A DNA stretch of 64,000 bases, from contig JANQEL010000060.1 in assembly GCA_028278345.1 (NCBI GenBank), forward strand, positions 1-64,000. The letters are read 5' to 3'. Source of the stretch: Myxococcota bacterium (GTDB taxonomy: Bacteria > Myxococcota_A > UBA9160 > UBA4427). The translations under genes and the position numbers were made by a program. This document shows, piece by piece, positions 23,947-53,303 of the stretch (positions are counted from its first letter, which is position 1; each line of letters begins with the position of its first letter). Below the pieces are notes generated by a model. It was not told the DNA's origin. It saw nothing but the letters and a program-made list of their open reading frames with translations, and ran no database searches.

Positions 23947-24807
23947 ATGCGTGCGGAGGACTTCGTGAACCGGCAATTCCTGGGAGTGATCTCCCCTTCA
24001 GCGCTCGTCGACGCCCGAAATGCGACCCACCGAGCGGCTCAAGTTCTGGCGGCCGTGGGTGAAACGCACCTCGAACACGAAGCCGATACCAGCCATACGG
24101 CGATGGCCTACGACCCGACGTTGGGAGCGCTGGTCAACGCGAGGCCCATCGAAGACGGTCTCCGCGGTGTTCTATGGCTCGACGATCTGGCGATCGGCGT
24201 GACACGGCGAGATCATGTGGTCGATCGGATCCCACTTTCCGGTCGCACTCTCGATGATGCGTTCGATTGGATGCAAAGGTCGGTTGCGATTCACTCGGAC
24301 GGAGAAAGGCGTGGAGCCCTGCGACGTCCTACGTATCCACTCCCTGACCATGGCCTCGAACACGGGGACGCATTCGATTCCTCGGACCCCGGTTCGATCG
24401 AGTTGGGGAAGTGGTTCCGCTCCGCCCATTCGGCCCTCGAGTCTCTTCCGAGCCATCCAGATGACGGCCCAATCGTGTGTTGGCCACATCACTTCGACCT
24501 GGCGATTCTACGAACGGTCGCGCGCGACGCGAGCGACGTCGCAACGAAGACGATCGGAGTCGGTCTGTCGCCCGGAGACGATCAGATTCCCGAGCCCTAC
24601 TGGTACGTGAACCACTGGCCGACCACCACGCGGGGCACCGGCTCACTCGAACCATTGCCCGTCGGAGAGTGGCACGATGACGGATTCGTCGCCGCGGTGT
24701 TGCGAGGAGGGGAGATCATCGAGGCCAGATCGACGCAGGCCCAGTCCGATGTCGTGGCATCATTTCTCGAGCATGCCATGCGCTCGAGTGAGGAGTTGCT
24801 CTCATGA
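23947..24807 (+). CDS. Unrecognised 286-residue protein translationally coupled to a Rieske-TPP enzyme
   Basis: I do not recognise the family with confidence. Visible traits are a central WPHHFDLAILRTVA segment, then a SPGDDQIPEPYWYVNHWP segment rich in aromatic residues and His, and EWHDDGFVAAVLRGGEII near the end. Similar WPxHFD and SPGD-x-P-E-P-Y motifs occur in uncharacterised bacterial proteins (memory only). There is no signal peptide or membrane helix. The stop overlaps the start of the next gene by ATGA, so the product is probably made in a fixed ratio with the Rieske-TPP protein and may be its partner. The start ATG lacks a clear ribosome site. Confidence 0.6.
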   Translation: MRAEDFVNRQFLGVISPSALVDARNATHRAAQVLAAVGETHLEHEADTSHTAMAYDPTLGALVNARPIEDGLRGVLWLDDLAIGVTRRDHVVDRIPLSGRTLDDAFDWMQRSVAIHSDGERRGALRRPTYPLPDHGLEHGDAFDSSDPGSIELGKWFRSAHSALESLPSHPDDGPIVCWPHHFDLAILRTVARDASDVATKTIGVGLSPGDDQIPEPYWYVNHWPTTTRGTGSLEPLPVGEWHDDGFVAAVLRGGEIIEARSTQAQSDVVASFLEHAMRSSEELLS

Positions 24808-26780
24808 GTCCCGTCCGACCCTCGAGCGAAACCACCTGGAAGAAGGCACTCGACCTCGGCGAACTCGAAGAGGGCCGCGTCAAGTCGGTTACCCTCGATG
24901 GACTGACGGTGTGCATGACGCACTGGGAAGGCCGGTACGGCGCCCTCGACGATCGCTGCCCCCACCAGGGTGGCCCACTGGGAGAGGGTTCGATCGAAAA
25001 CGGTCACCTCCGCTGTCCATGGCATGGTTGGGATTATTGTCCGCTGACGGGCCAACCGCCGGATGGTGGCTATGACGACGGTGTCGCCACCCATCCAGTG
25101 CAGGTGCGCGATGACGGCATCTACGTCGAATTGCCCCTTCGCCTGGAGCGAGATCGCACGGTGTCGGACGTCGTCGTCGAGACGCTTGCGAACTGGGATG
25201 TCCGCTGGGTGTTCGGAATGGTGGGTCACTCGAATCTGAACGTCGCCGAAGCCATTCGTCTTCAACAAGAAGCGGGTTCGATGCGCTACATCGGGATCCG
25301 GCATGAAGGGGCGGCAGCGTTCGCCTGTTCAGCCTATGGCAAACTCACCGGGCGTTCCGCCGCCTGCCTTGCGATCGCCGGGCCGGGGGCCACGAATCTG
25401 CTCACGGGCCTGTGGGATGCGCATGTCGACCGTTCCCCGGTGATCGCTCTGACAGGTCAAGTCGCCACGCAGGTCCTGGGCACCGGTAACTTCCAGGAAC
25501 TCGATCTCAAGGCCGCATACGGTCAAGTCGCCGCGTTCGCGCAACCCGTATTGGCAGACTCGCCACACGCCGAGCTCGCAGGAAGAGCTGTCAAGACGGC
25601 CGTCCTCGAGCGAACCGTTTCGCAGTTGATCTTCCCCGACGAAGTCGCGGGACACGCCAGCGAATCACCTGCGGGTTCGCCCGTTGGCCGCGTCGCTTCA
25701 CTCGAGTCACCACCTCCGGAATCCGAACTCGAACGCGCCGCAGCCGCGCTGAGAGAGGCTCGGCGTCCCGTGATCATCGTGGGGCATGGCGCGCGATTCG
25801 ACATGCCCCGCGTCATCGCATTGGCGGAGGAACTCGGAGCACCGGTTCTCACGACCTTCAAGGCGAAAGGCTTGATTTCCGATCACCATCCCCTCGGCTG
25901 CGGCGTACTCGGTAGGAGTGGTACACCCATCGCGAGTTGGTTCATGAACGAATCCGATCTGCTTCTGGTGCTCGGCGCGAGCTTCTCGAATCACACGGGC
26001 ATCACACCCAAGAAGCGGACGATTCAGATCGATCGCGATCCCATGGCCCTCGCGAAGTTTCATTCCGTGGACATGCCGATCGTCGGGGACCTCGGCGTGG
26101 CGACGGCCCAGCTGCTCGATCGGGTGTCGGGCCAACGCGCTTCAATCGGTCAGGTCGACGAGGTCGCAGCGCGATGGTCGATCTGGCGAAAAGAGAAGGA
26201 GCGCCGTCGAGAGGACGACCGGGGTCGGGGAATCAATTCAGCGGCGCTCTTCGAGGCGCTGACCCGCTGTGTCCCACGTGACGCCATCATGCCCGTCGAT
26301 GTTGGCAACAACACCTATTCGTTCGGACGCTACTTCGAGTGCGCGGAGCAAGCCGTCCTCATGTCCGGCTACCTCGGCTCGATCGGGTTCGCGTTTCCAG
26401 CCGCGCTCGGAGCCTGGTGTGCGACGCAGGAGCAGGGCACTCCGTTCAGTGGTCGTTCGGTCGTCTCGATCTCGGGGGACGGTGGCTTCGGTCAGTATCC
26501 CTTCGAACTGACGACTGCGGTGAAGTACGGAATGAATCTCACCCACGTTCTCCTTCACAATGGTGAACTCGGAAAGATCTCGAAGGAGCAACGATTCGGG
26601 CAATGGCCCGTCTGGGAGACCTCTCTCCACAACCCCGACTTCTCGCAGTACGCCGAGCTGTGCGGTGCCAAGGGAGTGCGAATCGAGTCTCTTGGGAATC
26701 TCGAAGCCGGCCTCAACGAGGGCCTGGAGCATGAGGGCCCTGCGCTCGTCGAGGTCATCTGCGACGCGAATCTCGTGTGA
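24804..26780 (+). CDS. Fusion of Rieske [2Fe-2S] domain and thiamine-diphosphate enzyme
   Basis: The 658-residue protein joins two domains. Residues ~1-112 form a Rieske domain: RCPHQGGPLG (C52, H54) and LRCPWHGWDY (C71, H74), the full ligand set. Residues ~118-655 form a ThDP enzyme of the acetolactate synthase/pyruvate oxidase type: RHEGAAAFACSAYGK with catalytic Glu168, a central domain (ARRPVIIVGHGA, TFKAKGLISDHHPLGCGVLG), and the cofactor motif ISGDGGFGQYPFEL...LLHNGELGK (GDG 558-560, N586). Such enzymes act on 2-oxo acids. The Rieske centre could pass electrons from the ThDP adduct or an oxidation step to a carrier. I know no characterised protein of this layout. Confidence 0.88.
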   Translation: MSPVRPSSETTWKKALDLGELEEGRVKSVTLDGLTVCMTHWEGRYGALDDRCPHQGGPLGEGSIENGHLRCPWHGWDYCPLTGQPPDGGYDDGVATHPVQVRDDGIYVELPLRLERDRTVSDVVVETLANWDVRWVFGMVGHSNLNVAEAIRLQQEAGSMRYIGIRHEGAAAFACSAYGKLTGRSAACLAIAGPGATNLLTGLWDAHVDRSPVIALTGQVATQVLGTGNFQELDLKAAYGQVAAFAQPVLADSPHAELAGRAVKTAVLERTVSQLIFPDEVAGHASESPAGSPVGRVASLESPPPESELERAAAALREARRPVIIVGHGARFDMPRVIALAEELGAPVLTTFKAKGLISDHHPLGCGVLGRSGTPIASWFMNESDLLLVLGASFSNHTGITPKKRTIQIDRDPMALAKFHSVDMPIVGDLGVATAQLLDRVSGQRASIGQVDEVAARWSIWRKEKERRREDDRGRGINSAALFEALTRCVPRDAIMPVDVGNNTYSFGRYFECAEQAVLMSGYLGSIGFAFPAALGAWCATQEQGTPFSGRSVVSISGDGGFGQYPFELTTAVKYGMNLTHVLLHNGELGKISKEQRFGQWPVWETSLHNPDFSQYAELCGAKGVRIESLGNLEAGLNEGLEHEGPALVEVICDANLV

Positions 26781-28118: not shown

Positions 28119-29102
28119 TCATTCCCCCTTGAGGCCGACCGGCTGGATCGGTGCGGCCATGCGGACCACGCGAAAAGCCTGCGGGGTCGCGATGATGGTG
28201 TCGCTCCAGAGTTCGTCTTGGTAGCGGTATCGGACCTGCACTCCTCGGACCTTACGATCGAGGAGCTGAGCCAGGGCCTCGGCCGCCGTCACGGAAGCGA
28301 CTTCCGCTCGGCGGTCGGGTGCCCCCTTGCAGCGGACGTCTTCGATCTCGGCCGCGGCTTCGATATCGAGAAACAGCCTGCGGAGATCGTCTTCGTCGAG
28401 TTCGGCTTCCCGCAGCTCGGGGAGTTCGATCTCCTGCGGTCCCGCGGTCGAGAGGTCGAGTGCCCTCGTCGTGGGTCGATCGGTATTGGGCAGGATCAGG
28501 ATCGCGTTCTGTGGGGCTGGGCAGACGTGCTGGCAGAAGCCGCAGCCGGTGCAGAGGCGCTCGTTCACCTCGGGCAGGTTGTCGACGAAGTGGATCGCAC
28601 CGGGTACCGGGCAGCGCTCGATGCAGACGCTGCACGTCGTCGAAAGCCGGTTGAGACAATCCATCTGCGAAACCCGCGCCGTGCCGAGCGCTGCGGGTGC
28701 TTCGTCGCGCAGTGCTCCGGTTTCACATGCGGCGATGCACGGCATGTCTTCGCACATGCGACACGGCGAGCGCGCGGGATCGATCATTGGAGTGCCCGTG
28801 GCTTCGCGCATGCGTTCGGGCGCTTCGAAGATCACGTCGTGGGGACACGCCTCGGCGCAGTCGCCGCAGCGCGTGCATGCTTCGAGGAAGTCGACTCCGG
28901 CGACGGCACCCGGTGGGCGCAACAACGCCAAAGCTTCTGCGCCGTGGCCCCGCCTGGGCGTCGCGCCCATCTGCGGGTCGAGCCACGAGATCACATCGGG
29001 AAGCGATTGCCCCGGCTTCGTGACTTCGCCCTCGTACCCCTTCGGCCGCCGCCCCAGGCGTCCGCGCAGGAGATCGCGCCGGCTGATTTCGTCCTTCGCC
29101 AT
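28119..29102 (-). CDS. NapF/NapG-type ferredoxin with four [4Fe-4S] clusters
   Basis: The 327-residue protein has Cys groups CTRCGDCAEACP, CRMCEDMPCIAACE, CLNRLSTTCSVCIERCP and CTGCGFCQHVCPAP, enough for four [4Fe-4S] clusters. The CxMCEDxPC form is typical of NapG, while the N-terminus SRRDLLRGRLGRRPKGY resembles NapF and lacks a Tat hydrophobic core, so a cytoplasmic place is likely. About 120 extra residues follow the clusters. It lies between the duplicated NapB gene and the porin gene. No napH neighbour exists. It may help insert cofactors into NapA or carry electrons. Three tandem 14-bp units precede the start. Confidence 0.8.
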   Translation of the reverse strand: MAKDEISRRDLLRGRLGRRPKGYEGEVTKPGQSLPDVISWLDPQMGATPRRGHGAEALALLRPPGAVAGVDFLEACTRCGDCAEACPHDVIFEAPERMREATGTPMIDPARSPCRMCEDMPCIAACETGALRDEAPAALGTARVSQMDCLNRLSTTCSVCIERCPVPGAIHFVDNLPEVNERLCTGCGFCQHVCPAPQNAILILPNTDRPTTRALDLSTAGPQEIELPELREAELDEDDLRRLFLDIEAAAEIEDVRCKGAPDRRAEVASVTAAEALAQLLDRKVRGVQVRYRYQDELWSDTIIATPQAFRVVRMAAPIQPVGLKGE

Positions 29103-29138: not shown

Positions 29139-29882
29139 GCTCGCGCGAAGCCCGAGCGCACCCTCCGACGGGTGGCACTGCAGGCAGCTGCGTCGATCGG
29201 GGTGTGGCGTTCGCAAGGCTGCGCGTCCTTCGGGGCCGTGACAGGATTCGCAGTTCTCGCGCATCCAGGTCGGGTGCGGAACGGAGGGCGGTGCGCCCAT
29301 GTACGCCTCGGCCCCACTCGTCGGCGAGCGAAGTCCCCTCCAATCCAGCGCCGCTGAAGCAGCGGGGTTCGGGGTGAGCACGGTGAACAGGGCCGAGTCG
29401 GTCACATGGCACTGCGTGCAGCTCGCATACTCGGCGTGGGGTACGCGACTCGCGCTGCGCCGGCCGAGGGTGAAGCCGTCGGCATGGCAGGCCAGGCATT
29501 CGGCGGCTCCACTCGCTCGAACCGGATGGGGAATCACGGGAGGCGCCCCGTCGAAGGCTCGACGCGCAGCGCGATCGAGCACCGCCTCCTCGGCGGGAAC
29601 GTCTTCGCGCTCGTCACGCAGCGCGGTCTCGCTCGCGATCTCCTTCGATGTCGCCCAACCCGACGCATCGACTCCGCCCTCCCACGGCCGACGCTCGAGT
29701 TCGGCGTGGCTTCGAGCAGGCGGAATCTTGCCGGGTTCCGGGCGCTCGCGTAGCGGCGGCTGTTCGGCGCGATAGGTACGGGGTGCCGTACCCGTCGCGA
29801 AGCCGATCGCAACCACGGCCGCTACCGCCGCAATCACCATGAAGACCGCACGCGCCGGTGCCTTGCGAAGCGGATCAGGCAT
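29133..29882 (-). CDS. napB-like: Tetrahaem cytochrome c made of two tandem NapB-like domains
   Basis: The 249-residue protein has one N-terminal hydrophobic segment (FMVIAAVAAVVAIGFATG), probably a signal anchor, then four haem sites: CLACH (129-133), CTQCH (155-159), CESCH (211-215) and CLQCH (233-237). Two copies of a NapB pattern are visible: APPVIPHPV...CLACH...PHAEY..CTQCH and APPSVPHPT...CESCH...PHPDR..CLQCH. NapB, the small subunit of periplasmic nitrate reductase, normally has one such unit with two haems. The duplicated form should carry electrons to NapA over a longer path. The start overlaps the NapA stop by 8 bp. Confidence 0.85.
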   Translation of the reverse strand: MPDPLRKAPARAVFMVIAAVAAVVAIGFATGTAPRTYRAEQPPLRERPEPGKIPPARSHAELERRPWEGGVDASGWATSKEIASETALRDEREDVPAEEAVLDRAARRAFDGAPPVIPHPVRASGAAECLACHADGFTLGRRSASRVPHAEYASCTQCHVTDSALFTVLTPNPAASAALDWRGLRSPTSGAEAYMGAPPSVPHPTWMRENCESCHGPEGRAALRTPHPDRRSCLQCHPSEGALGLRASR

Positions 29883-32289
29883 GGCCGCTCGCGCCGATGC
29901 GCTTCACCCGGGCCGCGCACTTCTTGAAGTCGGGCTGCTTCGAGAACGGATCGTGGGCATCGAGGGTGAGGTCGTTGATGAGGCGCCCCTCGTCGAAGAA
30001 GGGCACGAAGACGGTTCCGCGCGGAGGTGAGCCACGGCCGTCGATCCAAACGGGCAGCTCGATGTCGCCGCGTCGCGTTTCGATCCGCACCACCTCTCCG
30101 TCCTGGATCGACAGGGCTCGCGCATCGTCGCGATGCATCTCGACGTACGCGTTCGGCATGGCGCGTCGCAGGGGCTCGACGCGCATCGTCATGCTTGCGG
30201 TGTGCCAGTGCTCGAGCACGCGGCCGGTGCACAGCCACAGCGGGTAGTCCTCGTCGGGCGCCTCCGGAGGCGCTTCGTAGGGCCGGAACCAGATCTGTGC
30301 GCGGCCGTCCTTCGTCGGTGAATGGTAGAAGTCGTACTCCTCGCCCTTGGCAACGTAGGGATCGTCGAAGCCCGAGAAGCGGAACCGCGTCTCGCGCCAG
30401 GTGCCGTCTTCCTGCTCGACGACTGGCCAGCGCAGGCCCCGCGCCTTCACGTAGACGTCGTAGGGGGCGAGATCCTTGTGCTTGAGCGTGGAGAATTGGC
30501 GGTACTCCTCGAAGAGCACGCGGTCGACGTTGATGTCGCGCCAGCGCGACCACTGCCACACCGGTACCTCGCCGCCATTCTTTCCGGGGAAGCGGAAGAG
30601 GAAGCCGCCGTCCTTGTCCTTCATCGGCTCGAAGCCGCGGTCGAAGAGCCGTCGCGCGACGGCGATCGTCTGCCACACGTCGTCGCGCGCCTGACCGGGC
30701 GGGTCCACCATCTTGAACCACTGTTGGGTGCGGCGCTCGGAGTTGCCGAACATGCCGTTCTTCTCGACCCACATGGCCGAGGGCAGCACCAGGTCGGCGT
30801 CGCGGGTGGTCGGTGTCGGATAGACATCGGAGACGATCAGGAATTTGTCCTCGTCGGCGACGCCGGGATCGAAGAGCTTGTGGCGATTCGGCAGCGTCTG
30901 TCCCGGGTTGGTGACCTGCACCCAGATGGTGGAGATGTCGCCGCCCTCTGCTGCGGGCTTGCACCACTGCTCCCACATCTTCACGGTGTGGTAGCCCGGC
31001 TTCTTGTTGATGCGGCCTTCCGGCAGGTTCCAGATCTCCTCGGCTTCCTTGCGGTGGGGGTCCTTTGCCACCAGACGTCCGCCGGGAAGCAGGTGCGCGA
31101 GGGTGCCGACTTCGCGCGCGGTGCCGCACGCCGAGGGTTGCCCGGTGAGGCTCGTGGGCGCGTCGCCCGGTTGACCGAAATGACCGGACAGCAGATGGAT
31201 CCCGTGGACGAGGGTGTTCATCGCGGTGCCGCGTGTGTGCTGATTCATCCCCATGCACCAAAGGCTCGTGATGCGGATGTCGCGACGACCGAAGAGATCG
31301 CCGAGCATGCGGATGTCCTTCGCCGGGACTCCGGAAATCTCCTCGACCCGCGCCGGGGTGTACTCGGCGATGGCCTGCTTGAACTCTTCGAAGCTGATCG
31401 TCTTGCCGTGCAGGCCGGGCGGATCGCTATCCGCCTTGAACGCGCAGTGCTGCTCGACGAATTCCCTGTCCCAGGTGCCATTGGCGATCAGCAGGTGGAG
31501 GATGCCGTTCGCGACGGCGAGGTCGGTGTGCGGCTTGAACTCGAGGTAGTGCTGCGCGTGGGCGGTCGAACGCGTGCGGCGCGTCGAGATGTCGATGATC
31601 TGGATCTTCTCGCCGCGCGAGCGTCGGTCGATCACGCGGGAGAAGAGCACTGGGTGCATCTCGGCCGGGTTGTTCCCCCAGTTGATCAGGACGTCGCAGT
31701 GATCGAGGTCGTCGTAGCAACCGGCGGGTTCGTCGACGCCATAGGTCGCGAGGAAACCCGTCACCGCCGACGCCATGCAGAGCCGAGCGTTGGGATCGAT
31801 GTGGTTGTTCGCGAGCCCGCCCTTGATGAACTTCTGGGCCGCGTAGCCTTCGGGGATCGTCCATTGGCCACTGCCGTAGATCGCGAAGCCCTTTGGATCC
31901 GCTTCGACGCGGTCGGCCACGATGTCGAGGGCCTCGTCCCAGGAGATTGGAACCTGCTTGCCATTCTTCTTGAGCAGGGGTTGGGTGAGGCGATCCTTTC
32001 CGTAGAGGGCGAGGCCGACGTGGTAGCCCTTCACGCAGAGCAGGCCTCGATTCACGTCCGCTTCGGGATCTCCCGCGATCGCGACGACGCGCCCCTCTTT
32101 GGTGCCCACCTGCACGTGGCAACCGGTTCCGCAGAAGCGACAAGGGGCCTTGTCCCACGAGACGTCAGCGCGGGGCGACGGGGAGGGCGGGTTGGACGCG
32201 CGGGCGTCGCCGGGCTTCAGGCCGTGGGCCGCCGCAGTAGCCGCCGCCATGGCGCTCAACTTCACGAAATTGCGTCGATCGATTTCCAT
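29875..32289 (-). CDS. napA: Periplasmic nitrate reductase catalytic subunit
   Basis: The 804-residue protein has a Tat-type N-terminus (RRNFVKLSAMAAATAAAHGL), a [4Fe-4S] set CRFCGTGC...LLC (C50, C53, C57, C85) and the Mo-ligand Cys171 in ARLCMASAVTGF. The segments MGMNQHTRGTAMNTLVHGIHLLSGHFGQPGDAPTSLTGQPSACGTAREVGTLAH and NRGLLCVKGY are characteristic of NapA. Length is near the usual ~830. It reduces nitrate to nitrite in the periplasm with a bis-MGD molybdenum centre. The preferred ATG at 32289 overlaps the NapD stop (TGATG); a GTG one codon earlier is possible. It lies in an eight-gene minus-strand operon. Confidence 0.93.
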   Translation of the reverse strand: MEIDRRNFVKLSAMAAATAAAHGLKPGDARASNPPSPSPRADVSWDKAPCRFCGTGCHVQVGTKEGRVVAIAGDPEADVNRGLLCVKGYHVGLALYGKDRLTQPLLKKNGKQVPISWDEALDIVADRVEADPKGFAIYGSGQWTIPEGYAAQKFIKGGLANNHIDPNARLCMASAVTGFLATYGVDEPAGCYDDLDHCDVLINWGNNPAEMHPVLFSRVIDRRSRGEKIQIIDISTRRTRSTAHAQHYLEFKPHTDLAVANGILHLLIANGTWDREFVEQHCAFKADSDPPGLHGKTISFEEFKQAIAEYTPARVEEISGVPAKDIRMLGDLFGRRDIRITSLWCMGMNQHTRGTAMNTLVHGIHLLSGHFGQPGDAPTSLTGQPSACGTAREVGTLAHLLPGGRLVAKDPHRKEAEEIWNLPEGRINKKPGYHTVKMWEQWCKPAAEGGDISTIWVQVTNPGQTLPNRHKLFDPGVADEDKFLIVSDVYPTPTTRDADLVLPSAMWVEKNGMFGNSERRTQQWFKMVDPPGQARDDVWQTIAVARRLFDRGFEPMKDKDGGFLFRFPGKNGGEVPVWQWSRWRDINVDRVLFEEYRQFSTLKHKDLAPYDVYVKARGLRWPVVEQEDGTWRETRFRFSGFDDPYVAKGEEYDFYHSPTKDGRAQIWFRPYEAPPEAPDEDYPLWLCTGRVLEHWHTASMTMRVEPLRRAMPNAYVEMHRDDARALSIQDGEVVRIETRRGDIELPVWIDGRGSPPRGTVFVPFFDEGRLINDLTLDAHDPFSKQPDFKKCAARVKRIGASGHA

Positions 32290-32567
32290 CACGTTTCCTC
32301 GCGAGCGTCCGCGGTTGCGGGACGCTCGAGCAGATCTTCGAAGTCGGCGTAGACCACATCGACATCGGCGATGCCGGGTACGCGTCGCAGGCCGTCGATG
32401 CGCGCTTCGGCTTCCTGCTTTCCGGGTGATTCGAGAACGACAGGCCAGCGGTGATCGGCGGGATCGCCGAGTTCGAGATCCGCCGCGTTGCCGAGCCGCG
32501 CTTCGACCCCCTTGCGGGTACTCGTCGCCTGGTCTTCGAGTACCAGGACCATTCCCAGGATCGGCAT
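32289..32567 (-). CDS. napD: NapD-like Tat-signal chaperone
   Basis: The 92-residue protein has the small ferredoxin-like fold expected of NapD: MPILGMVLVLE at the first strand, WPVVLESPGKQEAEARIDGLRRVPGIADVDVVYADFEDLLE with the GVxxxxVVY-type last strand. NapD binds the Tat signal of NapA and holds it during cofactor loading. Position fits: it lies directly between the NrfD-like gene and napA, overlapping both by TGATG. The sequence is divergent from enteric NapD, so naming rests on length, motif and place. Confidence 0.75.
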   Translation of the reverse strand: MPILGMVLVLEDQATSTRKGVEARLGNAADLELGDPADHRWPVVLESPGKQEAEARIDGLRRVPGIADVDVVYADFEDLLERPATADAREET

Positions 32568-45614: not shown

Positions 45615-45890
45615 TCAGCCCCCCGCGACCGCCGGTGCGATGTCGACCACCTGGCCGGGTTCGATCACGGTGTCCTCACCGCCGGGCAGATGCCTCGCGC
45701 TGCGGCCGTCGAGGAAGACATGCGCGCGGCGCGACAGCGTTCCGTCGTCGAGCAGCGTTTCCGCGAGGTCGGGCCAGCGCGTCACCATCTCGTCGATCAG
45801 CTTGCGCACCGTCGCGCCCGGAGGCATCTCGACCTCGACCGACTTCCCGCCGACGATCGGGCGGAGCGTCGCGTAGACGCGAACGAGCAT
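45615..45890 (-). CDS. MoaD/ThiS-family sulfur-carrier protein of the AOR locus
   Basis: The 91-residue protein has the beta-grasp pattern LVRVYATLRPIVGGKSVEVEMPPGATVRKLIDEMV, TVIEPGQVVDIAPAVAGG. It ends in Gly-Gly, the site where MoaD/ThiS proteins carry thiocarboxylate sulfur. It lies 26 bp after the aldehyde ferredoxin oxidoreductase gene on the same strand. Such a MoaD-like gene commonly follows AOR genes, where it likely supplies the dithiolene sulfur of the pterin cofactor. No ThiF/MoeB-type adenylation enzyme is in the window, so activation must occur in trans. Confidence 0.85.
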   Translation of the reverse strand: MLVRVYATLRPIVGGKSVEVEMPPGATVRKLIDEMVTRWPDLAETLLDDGTLSRRAHVFLDGRSARHLPGGEDTVIEPGQVVDIAPAVAGG

Positions 45891-45916
45891 GGCCTTCGAA
45901 CCTCGCGAAACCCGCG

Positions 45917-47731
45917 CTAGGGGATCTGCAGCGCTGCGCGCTTGTCGTCGCTGACGACACCGTCCTTCCAACCGCGCACTGCATAGTACTCCTCGAGCAT
46001 CTGGTCGAGCTCGCAGACGTGGCCCTTCGAGCCCGCGGCGTCCGACGGTTCTTCGAGGAAGCGCGCGGGGAGGGTGTCGGAACCGGCGCCGAAGCCCGCC
46101 ATGTTGTTGTAGAGACGCTCGAGGTTGTAGATGCGCTCGCCCGTCTCCATCACGTCCTCGGCGCTGACCGGCCGACCGACCGCGACCGAGTACTGCTTCG
46201 CGTACTCGTCGGCGCCTTCGGCAAACGAACTGAACTTGCACAGGTCCATGCTGTCGCCGAAGGCGAGCAGATCCTGGAAGGTCTTCATCAGTTCGCCCTT
46301 GCCCTTCCAGGCGAGGGGGTCGGCCTCGATCGGCACCACACCGAGTTCGGCCGCGGCGACGTAGCCGCGCAGGTGGCAGGCGCCGCGATTGCTCGTCGCG
46401 TAGCCGAGCCCCATTCCCTTCATGCCGCGCGGGTCGTAGGCGGGCACCGCCTGGCCCTTCACCGTCATGGCGATCTCGGGATGGCCGAGGCGTTCGGCGG
46501 CGAGGGCCGGGCCTTCGGCGAGGAGGTCTCCATCGCCTTCGCGCACCGCGATGGCATCCGTCATGGCGACCATGCCCTGGGTGTCGCCCCAGGCCAGGCC
46601 TGCCCCTTCGACCCAGCCGCGCTCGGTGGCTTCCATGTACATCGAGAGGGCGTTGCCGAGTTCGATCGGGTCGAGGCCGAGGTCGTTGCACTGGTCGATC
46701 AACTTCGCGATCGAGCCGAGGTCGTCGTTCAAGCAGTTCGACCCGAGAGACCAGGCCGGCTCGTACTCGACACTCTCCATCTTCAGGCCCTTCCACGGGC
46801 CTTCCTTTACCTCGACTTCCTTCTTGCATGCGACGGGGCATGCGTGACACGTGGGATTGCTCGTGAGGATGGTGTCGACCACGGTCTCGCCACTGATCGC
46901 CTCGGCGCGATCACCGAACGACGTGCTCTGGCTGTTCTTCGTGCCGAGTGCGCCGATCGTGTTCGTGATGTTCGTGATCACGTTGGTGCCGTAGACCGAG
47001 AGCCCGCCCTTCTTGGGGCTCGTGATGTTGGCTTCGTCGCGAATGCGCTCGAGCGCCTCGTTGCGCGCTTCGCGCCATGCGTCGGGGTCGCCCACCTCGC
47101 TCTTCTTGCGAGCGGCCTTGATCACCATCGCCTTCAGGTTCTTGACCCCACCGACGGCGCCCGTGCCTCCGCGCCCGAAGGCGCGATCGTCTTCGTTCAC
47201 CCAGGCGGCGAAGCGGCTGCGATTCTCGCCCGCCGGCCCGATGGCGTTGACCGAGACGTCCTTTCCTCCGTGGCGTTCGCGCAGGATCTCGATCGTCTCG
47301 TGAATGCCCTTGCCCCAGAGGTCCGAGGCGTCGTGGAAGGTGATGCTGCCATCTTCGATCAGCACGTAGGTCGGCTGCGCCGCCGCGCCTTCGAAGATCA
47401 CGCCGTCGAAACCCGCCCAGCGCAGGCGAGCCGCGGTCCAGCCACCCTGGTGGCTATCGGTGACGGTGCCCGTGAGCGGCGACTTCGTCACGCAGGCCCA
47501 GCGGCCACTCATGCTCACTTCACTGCCGCTGATCGGACCATTCAAGAAGCACAGCGGATTCTCGGCCGAGAGCGGGTCGATCTCGGGACCCGCTTCGAAT
47601 ACGTACCGGACGCCGAGCCCACGACCTCCGACGTATTTCTGCAGCCACTCCTCGGGCGCGGGTTGCATCCGGACGCTCTGGGATGCGAGGTCGACGTGGG
47701 CAATCGCTTCACCGAATCGGTCGAGTTGCAT
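45917..47731 (-). CDS. aor: Aldehyde ferredoxin oxidoreductase (tungsten-type)
   Basis: The 604-residue protein has the AOR domain order: N-domain with YVGGRGLGVRYVFE, PLTGTVTDSHQGGWTAARLRWAGFDGVIFEG and GENRSRFAAWVNEDDRAFGRGGTGAVGGVKNLKA; middle domain with the cluster Cys set CHACPVAC (C295, C298, C302); and DSMDLCKF (C498), completing a [4Fe-4S] site. These enzymes oxidise aldehydes to acids at a tungsto-bispterin centre and reduce ferredoxin. The ATG at 47731 has GGAGAAG before it; a longer frame upstream adds 13 residues outside the domain. A MoaD-like gene follows. An acetylene-hydratase-like gene lies ~3 kb away. Confidence 0.92.
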   Translation of the reverse strand: MQLDRFGEAIAHVDLASQSVRMQPAPEEWLQKYVGGRGLGVRYVFEAGPEIDPLSAENPLCFLNGPISGSEVSMSGRWACVTKSPLTGTVTDSHQGGWTAARLRWAGFDGVIFEGAAAQPTYVLIEDGSITFHDASDLWGKGIHETIEILRERHGGKDVSVNAIGPAGENRSRFAAWVNEDDRAFGRGGTGAVGGVKNLKAMVIKAARKKSEVGDPDAWREARNEALERIRDEANITSPKKGGLSVYGTNVITNITNTIGALGTKNSQSTSFGDRAEAISGETVVDTILTSNPTCHACPVACKKEVEVKEGPWKGLKMESVEYEPAWSLGSNCLNDDLGSIAKLIDQCNDLGLDPIELGNALSMYMEATERGWVEGAGLAWGDTQGMVAMTDAIAVREGDGDLLAEGPALAAERLGHPEIAMTVKGQAVPAYDPRGMKGMGLGYATSNRGACHLRGYVAAAELGVVPIEADPLAWKGKGELMKTFQDLLAFGDSMDLCKFSSFAEGADEYAKQYSVAVGRPVSAEDVMETGERIYNLERLYNNMAGFGAGSDTLPARFLEEPSDAAGSKGHVCELDQMLEEYYAVRGWKDGVVSDDKRAALQIP

Positions 47732-47829
47732 GGGGGCTTCTCCCTGGCCTGGGGTTCGACGCTCCCCCAATCGTACACCGCACCGCGCAGTGGATGGAAG
47801 CCTGCGAATTCGCCCCGCTCCCAGCGCGA

Positions 47830-48789
47830 TCAGCCCTCTCTCATGTCGAGCAGGATCTTGCCGCGTTTCCCCGGCCGCAGTTGCCGTTCGAAGGCGGCGT
47901 CTGCGTCGGCGAGGGGGTGGATGCTGTCGATCGTCTCACTGAAGGCCCCATCGGCGACGAGGCCGCGAAGCCGCTCCATTCGGGCTTCGTCCGTGTCGTG
48001 TTCCAACAGGAAGCCCCACTTCTTCGAAGAGAAGAGACTGCGGGCCCAACCCGCCACGTCGCGATGGGGCATGGTGGTGATGTAGTGGCCGCGTTTCTTC
48101 AGGAAGGGCCCCGCCTTCGAGAACGAAAGCGAGGGTGCCGTGTCGAAGACGACATCGAAGGAGGCGCCTGCTTCGGGCAGTTCCTCCTTGTCGTAGGCGA
48201 GGGCGTGGGTCGCTCCCTGGGAGCGCGCGAAGTCGAGCTGCGATGAATGGCAGATCGCCGTGACTTCTGCGCCGATGTATCTCGCGAGCTGTACCGCCGT
48301 GATTCCCACGCTTCCCGTAGCGCCGGTGATCAAGACCTTCGCTCCGCGCTTCAGGTGCACGATGCGTTCCAGGGCGTTGATCGACGTCAGGGCACCGCCG
48401 AGAATCGACGTCGCCGCTTCGAGGGATGTGTCTTCCGGCACCACAGCGAGGTTGTGCTCGGGGGTGGCGACGACCTGCGCGTGATACCACGGGCCCTTGT
48501 AGATGTTCGTGTAGCCGAAGACGCGATCGCCGGGTCGGATCCGCTCGCCTCCGGTTTTGGCGACGCCCGCCATCTCGATCCCCGACACCATCGGTGAATT
48601 CTTCAGCGCGCGGGCGACCGTGCGCTGGTGCTCGCCGTTCGAGATCTCGAGATCGATGTAGTTCAAGCCCGCGTAGTGAACGCGAACGAGGATCTCGCCG
48701 GGCTTCGGCTCCGGGGGAGGCACGTCGACGAGGGTGCGTTTCGGCGCTTCGCCGCGTGATTCGGGGGTTGTGAAGGAGATGGCTTTCAT
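47830..48789 (-). CDS. MDR-superfamily NAD(P)H-dependent oxidoreductase
   Basis: The 319-residue protein has the medium-chain dehydrogenase fold: PKPGEILVRVHYAGLNYIDLEISNG, SGIEMAGVAKTGGERIRPGDRVFGYTNIYKGPWYHAQVV, then Rossmann VLITGATGSVGITAVQLARYIGAEVTAICHSSQLDFARSQGATHALAYD. The catalytic zinc Cys/His set is absent, so it is probably a quinone oxidoreductase or enoyl reductase type. The gene is divergent from a TetR regulator, with two operator-like repeats in between, and lies ~60 bp from the AOR gene's start on the same strand. It may be the main target of that regulator. Confidence 0.88.
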   Translation of the reverse strand: MKAISFTTPESRGEAPKRTLVDVPPPEPKPGEILVRVHYAGLNYIDLEISNGEHQRTVARALKNSPMVSGIEMAGVAKTGGERIRPGDRVFGYTNIYKGPWYHAQVVATPEHNLAVVPEDTSLEAATSILGGALTSINALERIVHLKRGAKVLITGATGSVGITAVQLARYIGAEVTAICHSSQLDFARSQGATHALAYDKEELPEAGASFDVVFDTAPSLSFSKAGPFLKKRGHYITTMPHRDVAGWARSLFSSKKWGFLLEHDTDEARMERLRGLVADGAFSETIDSIHPLADADAAFERQLRPGKRGKILLDMREG

Positions 48790-50453: not shown

Positions 50454-52667
50454 TTAGCCCAACGTCGTCGAGGACATGCCCTCGGGCGGATCGCACGGGA
50501 CGAGCCTTCCGGGGTAGCCCTTGAAGTGGGGGATGCCCTGCTCGTGGTCGAGCAGTTCATCGGTGTCGATCGTGAGCACCGCATCCGACGAGACGAAGGC
50601 CCCGGCGAGGTCGACGCTGCCGCGCGTTTCCGGGTACCACCAGCCGTGGGGGACGCGAACGTGTCCGGGTCGCATGCCATCCTGGACGCTGACCTTGGCA
50701 TGGACGTGGCCGTGCTCGGTCTCGAGTCGCGCCCACGCTCCGTCTTCGAGCCCATCGCGCGCCGCATCGACCGGATGCACGAAGAACTCCGGAGCCGGTG
50801 AACGTCGACGCAACACGCCGATGTTGCGTTGGCCCGTCTGGAAGAAGGGATCCTCCCGAACGCCGGAGAAGACGAGGTACGGGTATTCCGCAGTCGGCGC
50901 AGGTGCGGGCCGGTGGTAGGGCAGCGGATCGAAACCGAGATCGGCGAGGATCGACGACGCGAGTTCGACCTTGCCCGACGGCGTTGCGAACCCCTTCTTG
51001 CGGTACTTGCGGAACTCCGGCACCGGCATGTCCATGAACTTGCTGGCGCGGAACTCATCGAAGGTGCTTCCCGAGGGCTCGAGGCGGTAGTCGATCAACT
51101 CTTCGACGGTCTGCCACGGAAAGTGTTCGGCGAGATCCATCCGGTGGGCGAGATCCGTCCAGAAGCGGAACGTCGAACTCGCTTCTTCCGGCGCGTCGGC
51201 GACCTGCTCGTTGAGCGAGAGGCGTGCCGCCCACGCCCAGCCGTCGGCGAGGTGGTTGCGCTCGCTGAAGACGTCGCCCGGGAGAACGTAGTCGGCGAGC
51301 ATCGCGGTCGGCGTCATGAAGATCTCGTGAGCCACGATGAGATCCTGATTCATCATGGCGCGATAGATCTGGTGCTGGTTCGGGTAGGAGAGCAGCGCGT
51401 TGTTGCCCAGCACGAAGAACGCCTTGATGGGGTATGGATCGCCGTCCGCCATGGCGCGGAAGACCTCGCTCGGGTTGGCCATGTGGCAACCCATCACCTG
51501 GTCGACCCAGGGTTCGCCCCAGACGCGTTCGAGGTGGGGCTTCAACATCTCGGCCGTGCGATAGGTGTAGACGGGGTGCTTTTCGTAGCCGAGTTGCTTG
51601 GCGCGCTGCGACGCCGGGATCGCGTCGTGCAGATGGAGTTCCGCCTCGGTGCGGTACGAGGGGTTCGGTCCACTCAGCATTTCGCCACCGACGACATCGA
51701 GATTACCCGTGATGGCGCGCAGGATCGATTGCAGGCGAATGCCCGAAGTCGAGTCGAGCTGTTGGTCGGTGATCGGCGTCCACGGAATCACCGCGCCATC
51801 TGCGTTGGCATACATGCGCGCGGCTTCGGCGATCTGTTCGGCAGAGACGCCCGTGATCTCGGCGACCCGCTCGAGGGGGTATTCGTCGACGCGTTCGCAG
51901 AGTTCCTTGAAGCCCACGCAGTGGTCGCGCACGAAGTCCTTGTCGTAGAGGCCCTCGTCGATGATGACCTTCGTCCAGCCGAGGAGCAGCGCTGCGTCGG
52001 TGCCCGCGCGGATCTGCAGGTGGATCGTTGCGCGCTCCGCCTGTTCGGAGACGCGCGGATCGACGACGATCGTCTTCGCGCCGCGCTTGCGCGCGCCCTC
52101 GATCTGGTTGTAGATCGGCGTCCACGAGTGTTTGCGCGGGTTGTGGCCGAGCAACACGACGCAATTGGTGCTGCCGATGTCGGGGAAGGGCATCCAGCCG
52201 TAGGTCAGTCGATTCACCGCGGCGGTATTGCCCGCGCAGAGCGACACCCCGGAGATCCAGTTCGGGGCGCCGAGCAGGTTCATGAAGCGGCGATCGAGCC
52301 CTTGGGTCACCTGGGTGTTCCAACCCGAGGTCGATACCGCGAACGCTTCCGGGCCGTGCCGATCGATCACGCCGCGAAGCCGCTCGGCGATTTCGTCCAT
52401 GGCCTGCTCGTACGAGATCTCCTCCCAGCGATCTTCGCCCCGCGCGCCCACGCGCTTGAGCGGCACGCGCAGCCGATCGGCGTGGTTGTGGATGTGCGGT
52501 GCGGCCGTGCCCTTGTAACAGATGTTCTTCGCGAGGGCAGGGGAGTCGTGGGCCTGGACGCGCTCGACGCGGCCGTCTCTCGCGGTCGTGCGAAACTGGC
52601 AGCCGATGTCACAGATCGAGCAGATCGAATAGCCGCTGCGCGCGTTGGATTCGTGCGGGGTCGTCAC
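50454..52667 (-). CDS. Acetylene-hydratase-like Mo/W-bis-pterin enzyme
   Basis: The 737-residue DMSO-reductase-family protein has a [4Fe-4S] set C16-SI-C19-D20-IG-C23 with C50. The cofactor-ligand position is Cys144 in SLCAGNTAAVNRLTYG. Asp directly after the second cluster Cys is the catalytic Asp13 position of acetylene hydratase. The spacing also places Trp182 and Trp296 at its Trp179 and Trp293, while Ile142 is replaced by Ala145 (numbering of acetylene hydratase from memory). Other segments such as RRFMNLLGAPNW, GTDAALLLGW and VPHGWWYPE also fit that subgroup. No Tat signal is seen, so it is cytoplasmic. The substrate is unproven. The start overlaps the TetR stop by 4 bp. Confidence 0.82.
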   Translation of the reverse strand: MTTPHESNARSGYSICSICDIGCQFRTTARDGRVERVQAHDSPALAKNICYKGTAAPHIHNHADRLRVPLKRVGARGEDRWEEISYEQAMDEIAERLRGVIDRHGPEAFAVSTSGWNTQVTQGLDRRFMNLLGAPNWISGVSLCAGNTAAVNRLTYGWMPFPDIGSTNCVVLLGHNPRKHSWTPIYNQIEGARKRGAKTIVVDPRVSEQAERATIHLQIRAGTDAALLLGWTKVIIDEGLYDKDFVRDHCVGFKELCERVDEYPLERVAEITGVSAEQIAEAARMYANADGAVIPWTPITDQQLDSTSGIRLQSILRAITGNLDVVGGEMLSGPNPSYRTEAELHLHDAIPASQRAKQLGYEKHPVYTYRTAEMLKPHLERVWGEPWVDQVMGCHMANPSEVFRAMADGDPYPIKAFFVLGNNALLSYPNQHQIYRAMMNQDLIVAHEIFMTPTAMLADYVLPGDVFSERNHLADGWAWAARLSLNEQVADAPEEASSTFRFWTDLAHRMDLAEHFPWQTVEELIDYRLEPSGSTFDEFRASKFMDMPVPEFRKYRKKGFATPSGKVELASSILADLGFDPLPYHRPAPAPTAEYPYLVFSGVREDPFFQTGQRNIGVLRRRSPAPEFFVHPVDAARDGLEDGAWARLETEHGHVHAKVSVQDGMRPGHVRVPHGWWYPETRGSVDLAGAFVSSDAVLTIDTDELLDHEQGIPHFKGYPGRLVPCDPPEGMSSTTLG

Positions 52668-53260
52668 CTGGAGTCTCCTTCGTGCCCGATGCGGGCGTCG
52701 TGTTCGTCGGCGAGCCGGAGTAGTTGTTCGAGAACGCGCTCTTCGTGGTCGAGGGGTCCCTTGTTCGTGGCGCGCCCGAGTGCGAGGCCGAGCATCGTCT
52801 CGCGTGCCAGCAGGAAGAACGACTGCGCGGCCTCGTCGCTGAGCAGGTCGGGGCGTTGTTCCGGATGGACGAGCTTCGCGAAGCGTTCGATCACCGGTCC
52901 GAGAGCCGCGCCGAGTTCGTCGTCGTTCGCCGCCGCGAGCCAGGCCTCGATCACGACCTTGAAGTCGATGCCGATCATCGTCTGCCAGGCGTGGGTCACG
53001 AGATCGGTCACGGACGTAGGTCTGGGTTGCGATTGGGCAACGCTTGCAAGCGCCGCATAGCGATGGTCGAGGGCCGCCGCGAAGAGTGCGGGCAGGCCGT
53101 CGAAGTGGTGGACGAACGCGCCGCGGGTCAGCCCCGCGCGCGCGCAGACCGCGACGGAGGTGACGCCCGCCCAGCCGTGTTCGACGAGCAATTCGAGGGT
53201 CGCCTGCACGAGGGCCTCGTGGGTCGCCGCCGATCTCTCTGCCTGGGTTCGTCTGGCCAT
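52664..53260 (-). CDS. TetR-family regulator of the acetylene-hydratase-like operon
   Basis: The 198-residue protein has an HTH in AATHEALVQATLELLVEHGWAGVTSVAVCARAGLTRGAFVHHFDGLPALFAAALDHRYAAL (residues ~10-65) and a helical C-terminal ligand domain (MIGIDFKVVIEAWLAAANDDELGAALGPVIERFAKLV). It is first in a three-gene minus-strand operon (TetR, molybdopterin enzyme, 67-residue protein); its stop overlaps the enzyme start. Cys39 (VAVCARAG) lies in the HTH. Co-translation suggests that the enzyme's substrate or product is the effector. Confidence 0.9.
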   Translation of the reverse strand: MARRTQAERSAATHEALVQATLELLVEHGWAGVTSVAVCARAGLTRGAFVHHFDGLPALFAAALDHRYAALASVAQSQPRPTSVTDLVTHAWQTMIGIDFKVVIEAWLAAANDDELGAALGPVIERFAKLVHPEQRPDLLSDEAAQSFFLLARETMLGLALGRATNKGPLDHEERVLEQLLRLADEHDARIGHEGDSR

Positions 53261-53274
53261 CTGCCGACCTTAAC

Positions 53275-53303
53275 AGATAAATTCATCGATGTATGTATTT
53301 TTT
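53275..53303. promoter_or_regulatory. AT-rich promoter/operator region, TetR / VOC divergent genes
   Basis: An AT-rich stretch centred on the palindrome CATCGATG (53284-53291) lies just before the TetR start at 53260, in GC-rich surroundings. It is the likely promoter and TetR binding region. The exact operator is not clear. Confidence 0.4.

Follow-up and report, generated by a model that had tools for sequence, protein, structure and literature searches.

An acetylene hydratase-subfamily enzyme with a co-changed substrate ring, encoded with an overlapping TetR-family regulator gene in a Myxococcota bacterium

The Myxococcota contig JANQEL010000060.1 (assembly GCA_028278345.1), of which the whole stretch of 64,000 nucleotides analysed here is called the window, encodes a real and well-supported member of the acetylene hydratase (AH) subfamily, which shares a regulated cassette with one other gene, and a co-changed pocket sets the large branch to which the enzyme belongs apart from AH itself. 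AH is described as the only known molybdenum (Mo) or tungsten (W) enzyme with a non-redox reaction (PMC12096430), and the enzyme of Pelobacter acetylenicus as the only well-characterised AH (PMC7858054). With a probability of about 0.45, we read the window protein as an inducible Mo/W hydratase that stands alone, carries out no redox reaction and has a reshaped pocket. The gene and its active-site codons lie as follows.

50454..52667, minus strand: AH-subfamily bis-MGD Mo/W, [4Fe-4S] enzyme (homology, alignment, tree, predicted fold)
52599..52622, minus strand: cluster motif C-x-x-C-D20-I21-x-C23, codons 16-23, with the AH-type catalytic Asp (Asp13) (alignment)
52320..52322, minus strand: codon 116, Trp replacing AH Ile113 (alignment)
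52233..52238, minus strand: codons 144-145, the metal-ligand Cys (Cys141), then Ala replacing Ile142 (alignment)
52122..52124, minus strand: codon 182, corresponding to AH Trp179 (alignment)
51780..51782, minus strand: codon 296, corresponding to AH Trp293 (alignment)
51237..51239, minus strand: codon 477, corresponding to AH Trp472 (alignment)

The intact ORF encodes 737 amino acids from a GTG start at 52667, and no signal peptide is visible by eye. Because an antisense ORF of 743 aa (50829-53060, plus strand) overlaps the gene in this GC-rich DNA, ORF length is insufficient to call it, and it is homology that identifies the gene. The protein has three Pfam molybdopterin-enzyme domains, and its top sequence match in the PDB was AH (2e7z, 633.6 bits, E = 3.7e-189), followed by a thiosulfate reductase at 219 bits; its identity to AH is 45% in the multiple alignment. 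Among the 25 of 27 NCBIfam matches listed, no model reached its cut-off, and none of the matches listed names an AH-type subfamily; the formate dehydrogenase alpha model scored 299 bits against a cut-off of 666.25, and the thiosulfate reductase model 263 bits against 694. An AlphaFold2 model built from 43 sequences (mean pLDDT 90.3) had 2e7z as its top Foldseek match (TM 0.92), and in VIA-align it matched 2e7z with Z 50.3 and an rmsd of 1.7 over 709 residues, the next entry reaching Z 37.3.

In a 56-row tree, the 39 AH-type proteins formed one clade (SH-aLRT 100), and in a 32-row tree the AH-type clade of 28 rows was recovered with UFBoot 98 and SH-aLRT 94. In the latter tree the protein of a Rhodococcus opacus plasmid diverges first, and the remaining 27 rows (100/98) fall into two groups: one joins AH to two Actinomycetota proteins (92/86), and the other, of 24 rows (98/92), includes the window protein's own clade of 13 rows (100/100). 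Long branches occur in these trees, and because of them the exact placement of L110 (R. opacus), L111, L135 and L144, among others, is unsure. The first-pass annotation of this DNA had likened the protein to AH, and the PDB search, NCBIfam scores, trees and modelled fold agree in placing it there and not with formate dehydrogenases; its membership in the AH subfamily of the DMSO-reductase (MopB) superfamily is confirmed.

Kinship alone is no proof of hydration, because the reported relatives of AH include catechol dehydroxylases, which are redox enzymes (PMC7028382), and a metallopterin-dependent ergothioneine synthase, which transfers sulfur (PMC9516567). The window protein could be a MopB enzyme with redox chemistry, such as reductive dehydroxylation or the dehydrogenation of a small molecule, which draws on a soluble electron carrier and has kept the Asp and Trp residues for another purpose. 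We consider this unlikely. Catechol dehydroxylases are reported to be closest to AH (PMC7028382), and MopB proteins are the nearest rows beyond the AH-type clade in the 56-row tree (both trees being built without catechol dehydroxylases), but the formate dehydrogenase and thiosulfate reductase scores of the window protein fall far below the cut-offs, and its gene neighbourhood, described below, also speaks against a redox partner.

The residues on which the comparison with AH had first been based, namely C16-x-x-C19-D20-I21-G-C23, C144-A145 in LCAGNTAAV, W182 and W296, are all present and align on AH positions in both the pairwise and the multiple alignment with 2e7z, Asp20 and the Trp residues mapping to the hydratase positions at the predicted offsets of 7 (cluster) and 3 (beyond). 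The 2e7z chain is numbered 3 below the literature, such that C138, I139 and W469 are Cys141, Ile142 and Trp472. The four cluster Cys are C16, C19, C23 and C50, the metal-ligand Cys is C144, and Lys48 of AH is kept as K52. According to the AH structure paper, the substrate ring reportedly consists of Ile14, Ile113, Ile142, Trp179, Trp293 and Trp472, which we take to be Ile21, Trp116, Ala145, Trp182, Trp296 and Trp477 in the window protein. Four of the six ring residues of AH proper (EC 4.2.1.112) are therefore kept, and two differ (Ile113 to Trp116 and Ile142 to Ala145). Ile113 and Trp472 had not been among the residues listed in the first-pass annotation. Around Trp116 the alignment is gapless, from the invariant V111-S112 to N117.

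Out of 147 rows examined, 121 carried Cys144, Trp182 and Trp296, and these were reduced to 100 AH-type representatives below 98% identity. Asp13, Lys48, Cys141, Trp179 and Trp293 are invariant where scorable in this set, which was itself selected by Cys141, Trp179 and Trp293, and Asp occupies position 20 in 98 of 98 scorable representatives; in the 26 other MopB rows, Asp was found in 0 (three being gapped there), Trp179 in 1, Trp293 in 8 and Lys48 in 17. The Trp472 position is less uniform among the 100 (Trp 78, Phe 12, Tyr 6, others 4). Trp116 and Ala145 occur as a pair in 92/100 representatives. The other pairs at these positions are Trp/Leu in two, and Ile/Ile (AH), Ile/Leu (R. opacus), Tyr/Met, Leu/Met and Ala/Met in one each, and one representative is gapped at 116. 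Within these 100, wherever residue 116 is visible, Ala145 is always accompanied by Trp there. One protein with the Trp/Leu pair, L126, splits off immediately below the Trp/Ala group (98/92), which suggests that Trp116 may have arisen before Ala145; L131 (Ala/Met), which sits within the Trp/Ala group, is an exception.

The replacement of Ile142 by Ala145 had been read in the first-pass annotation as a wider pocket. This replacement is real, while the paired change of Ile113 to Trp116 had been overlooked, and a simple widening was rejected, since Ile142 to Ala accompanies Ile113 to Trp in the alignment of 100 representatives. Room is thereby shifted from one side of the ring to a different one; in side-chain volume the two changes nearly cancel, and "reshaped" is a safer word than "wider" because one ring residue grows and another shrinks. 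The structural model is weakest around Trp116 (mean pLDDT 70 for residues 111-120). In mutant work on P. acetylenicus AH, the change of Ile142 to Ala is said to reduce activity. AH is reported to be specific for acetylene (PMC4653830, PMC6308299), and propyne and ethylene are reported not to be hydrated by it (PMC6308299); the changed ring therefore suggests a changed substrate. No paper printing the Ile113 ring of acetylene hydratase was found among the matches listed in a literature search.

Some relatives depart further from these patterns. One Pseudomonadales genome (G040) has three AH-type copies (L120, L131 and L132), and the ring of L131 is divergent, with Ser, Ala and Met at the Ile14, Ile113 and Ile142 positions. 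In a related MopB group (L119, L136 and L138), the residue following the second cluster Cys is His where AH has Asp (CRMCHGGC or CKMCHGGC), and the Trp293 position is occupied by Trp.

A tblastn search of plasmids returned five records at E 1e-50 or better. The top record, which names Tuebingen, is a plasmid of 745 kb from R. opacus DSM 44186, and its protein, WP_120661552.1, has the same catalytic residues as the window protein at 42% identity; the second match, from Rhizobium, is without the AH residues, and the other three show 26-31% identity. Unlike the window protein, WP_120661552.1 has an AH-like ring (Ile14, Ile113, Leu142, Trp179, Trp293 and Trp472), branches outside the group of AH and the window clade, and has Mo-cofactor and ferredoxin genes nearby: ferritin-like (AurF-like), FdxA and MoeZ genes lie downstream, the ferredoxin gene two genes away, and a molybdenum cofactor guanylyltransferase gene is found 13 kb away among transposases. 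The AH-like gene itself is held in a plasmid region (14980-31344 of L110) with transposases and integrases. Strain DSM 44186 is presumably one of the acetylene-degrading R. opacus isolates; no paper tying it to acetylene was found among the matches listed in the literature search. Genes similar to AH are reported in the R. opacus genome (PMC7858054), and the similarity as such is therefore already in print; the gene itself, its plasmid location and its ring composition were read from the sequence here. Judging from its sequence, this gene is a candidate for an aerobic, Mo-dependent acetylene hydratase.

This homologue also bears on the possibility that the window protein and its clade are simply the acetylene hydratases of aerobes, in which the substrate is acetylene, the Trp/Ala swap is a neutral route to the same small cavity, and the acetaldehyde is left to ordinary aldehyde dehydrogenases. 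Every catalytic residue is kept in the alignment of 100 representatives, the R. opacus protein branches just outside the group of AH and the window clade (100/98, on a long branch), and R. opacus is reported, with the strain unnamed there, to live aerobically as an acetylenotroph and to have a Mo-dependent AH (PMC7858054). In Mycobacterium persicum, the gene before the AH-like copy encodes an aldehyde dehydrogenase, but an aldehyde dehydrogenase domain occurs in only 1/71 upstream genes. In addition, the AH-like ring (Ile113, Leu142) belongs to the R. opacus protein and not to the window clade, and the reported acetylene specificity of AH (PMC4653830, PMC6308299) argues against one substrate for two different rings. 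We regard this explanation as a real contender, though less likely than not, and keep to a hydratase with a changed substrate as our preferred reading.

Two further features stand upstream of the enzyme gene.

52664..53260, minus strand: TetR-family regulator, 198 aa (Pfam; same arrangement in relatives)
53279..53296, no strand: palindromic operator-like site, 14/16 match to ACATACATNNATGTATGT, 18 bp upstream of the TetR start codon

The stop codon of the TetR gene overlaps the GTG start of the enzyme gene by 4 bp (GTGA). A TetR gene of the same group is found within 1.5 kb upstream at 19 of 80 loci, in addition to the window; it shares the strand of the enzyme gene at 18 of the 19 and is divergent at one. 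These loci come from records named as Myxococcota, Actinomycetota, Pseudomonadota and Binatia. At 61 of the 81 loci, TetR was not found beside the gene. Among immediate upstream genes, Pfam TetR_N is the commonest family (17/71), and MarR occurs in 5/71. With at least 13/16 matches to the consensus ACATACATNNATGTATGT as the criterion, the palindrome is present at 16 of the 18 TetR loci with enough DNA (window included), a rate that is partly circular because 16 TetR loci had served for drawing the consensus by eye; the site fell short of the criterion at L034 (12/16) and L031 (8, its TetR hit being a fragment). It was found at 0/61 loci without TetR, 54 of which have 700 bp or more of upstream DNA, in 0/900 shuffles, and at two other places in 1.34 Mb. 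An independent check used six further loci with TetR hits, none of them a copy of any of the 80: those with strong hits (L014, L113, L117 and L133) gave 13-16/16 matches, and those with weak TetR hits (L124 and L143) only 10/16.

At up to 2 mismatches, the palindrome occurs once in the 7.26-Mb genome of the window's bacterium, before the TetR-enzyme operon. Six of nine genomes searched at this threshold have one site each, about 0.6-0.7 kb upstream of an AH-like gene (in G010, of a gene fragment at the end of a contig), and three (G002, G016 and G536) have none; a reversed control pattern had no match in the nine. Given this single genomic site, the switch seems to serve no operon other than the TetR-enzyme one. 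Such a dedicated switch fits detoxification, or a reaction of a single step with a product that passes into general metabolism. The G010 fragment (G010:C93) is part of a second AH-like copy (78% identity, residues 3-90) and has a palindrome of its own.

Immediate neighbours were scanned with Pfam for 71 of 72 upstream genes, with the enzyme start fixed and one gene at a contig end left out, and for 75 of 76 downstream genes, from greedy gene calling without the enzyme fixed. Among the 25 families with the most members, of 51 upstream and of 72 downstream, no Fe-S or membrane-anchor family matched more than one immediate neighbour, and no family exceeded 5/75 downstream. The biggest neighbour clusters after TetR cover 17, 13 and 12 of the 81 loci, at scattered distances and on both strands, and the representatives scanned (short-chain dehydrogenases, a cytochrome P450 and a PhyH-type dioxygenase) are common catabolic genes. 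The absence of partner genes is negative evidence; it fits AH, which is a monomer, and a reaction without an electron partner, and counts against the redox enzyme considered above. In contrast, Fe-S protein genes are reported near all but one of the putative and reference AH genes of another study (PMC7858054), and the R. opacus homologue has a ferredoxin gene close by.

The window also contains an aldehyde ferredoxin oxidoreductase (AOR) gene (45917-47770) and a zinc-type dehydrogenase gene (47830-48789) on the same strand as the enzyme gene and less than 3 kb from it. A local pathway in which the aldehyde made by the hydratase is oxidised by AOR, both with tungsten, is chemically attractive and yet very improbable: an opposite-strand gene intervenes, relatives of this AOR occur at 0/80 enzyme loci and relatives of the dehydrogenase at only 3/80 (29-33% identity), and AOR-family genes are present in only 3/10 carrier genomes, the window's included. 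As a general context for the enzyme, this pathway was rejected on these counts. Within 45615-47770 (minus strand), the end of the AOR gene is overlapped by an ORF in another frame, and the last 89 residues of this ORF form a ThiS/MoaD-like domain. Elsewhere in the window, a second molybdopterin oxidoreductase (29875-32292, minus strand) is accompanied by a multi-cluster 4Fe-4S protein (28119-29102, minus strand), a pairing usual for redox members of the superfamily, and in a 658-aa protein (24804-26780, plus strand) a Rieske [2Fe-2S] domain at the N-terminus is fused, unusually, to a complete thiamine-diphosphate enzyme of the acetolactate-synthase-like kind.

A profile scan of GTDB contigs with the AH multiple alignment gave 512 relatives of any MopB kind, the best 80 of which have 54 to 86% identity. 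By record name, these 80 come from Pseudomonadales and other Gammaproteobacteria, Acidimicrobiales and other Actinomycetota, Myxococcota, Binatia, a Thermoanaerobaculia bin, Alphaproteobacteria, Trinickia, Mycobacterium persicum and a few others. Prevalence is patchy across the groups surveyed. In the window's phylum, 21/329 genomes matched at E 1e-80, 20 of them (the window's own included) at 54% or more; the remaining one (G595) has only a 35% relative without the AH residues. The order of one Pseudomonadales carrier gave 10/293 genomes, among which G647 is without the AH residues. Searches with the R. opacus protein gave 1/301 in the Mycobacterium carrier's family (the carrier itself), 6/396 in that carrier's phylum (four with AH residues), and 5/274 in the class of the Trinickia carrier (three with AH residues).

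Haem-copper oxidase family genes (PF00115, a family that includes nitric oxide reductases as well) scored above cut-off in 12/12 carrier genomes tested, and the window's bacterium is probably oxygen-respiring. ModA was above cut-off in 7/10 carrier genomes, the window's own not among them; together, the ModA and AOR counts make Mo likely for most carriers and leave either metal possible for the window's organism. The window's own genome gave 33 tblastn matches to MopB proteins on many contigs, some being pieces of one gene, which is a rich Mo/W enzyme set for a bacterium that carries haem-copper-oxidase-family genes.

Homology, residues, predicted fold, gene overlap and conserved site are direct observations, and from them we infer the chemistry, cofactor, metal, substrate, repression and ligand in the following proposal. 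The protein would be a cytoplasmic single-subunit enzyme in which a [4Fe-4S] cluster accompanies a bis-MGD site with Mo or W, bound through Cys144. Asp20, above a metal-bound water, may activate water or substrate, and water would be added to a carbon-carbon multiple bond of a small unsaturated compound with no net redox change; for this non-redox hydration we rely on the residues, the phylogeny and the absence of partner genes. In the rearranged ring (Ile113 to Trp116 and Ile142 to Ala145), the substrate would probably have another shape or entry direction. Expression would be on demand, the upstream-encoded TetR repressor binding one palindrome before its own operon and releasing it when substrate or product is present.

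Among known systems, the AH of the anaerobe Syntrophotalea (Pelobacter) acetylenica (2e7z) is the closest in fold, Asp13 cluster motif, Lys48, Cys141 ligand and the kept Ile14, Trp179, Trp293 and Trp472, and no partner subunit is evident in either case. The window protein differs from it in the Trp for Ile113 and Ala for Ile142, in its TetR operon, and in carriers with haem-copper-oxidase-family genes (12/12). The catechol dehydroxylases (Dadh, Cldh and others), compared here by description only, share the superfamily and are described as reductive (PMC7028382). In the metallopterin-dependent ergothioneine synthase, an N-terminal module distantly related to AH (27%) is described as fused to a cysteine desulfurase for sulfur transfer (PMC9516567), and the window protein is without such a fusion.

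A broader proposal, possible but tentative, is that this multi-phylum family comprises Mo-dependent hydratases of oxygen-respiring bacteria that would act on a non-acetylene unsaturated substrate with no redox partner, part of the family being organised as a self-contained, inducible operator-TetR-enzyme unit. A large AH-related family in bacteria with oxygen-respiration genes offers natural variants for testing ring residues against substrate choice, and the TetR/operator pair is a potential reporter for the inducing compound. With the R. opacus plasmid gene there is also a candidate, at the sequence level, for the Mo-dependent AH of aerobes. If true, the non-acetylene reading would mean a second hydration activity for Mo/W pterin enzymes, in many marine lineages.
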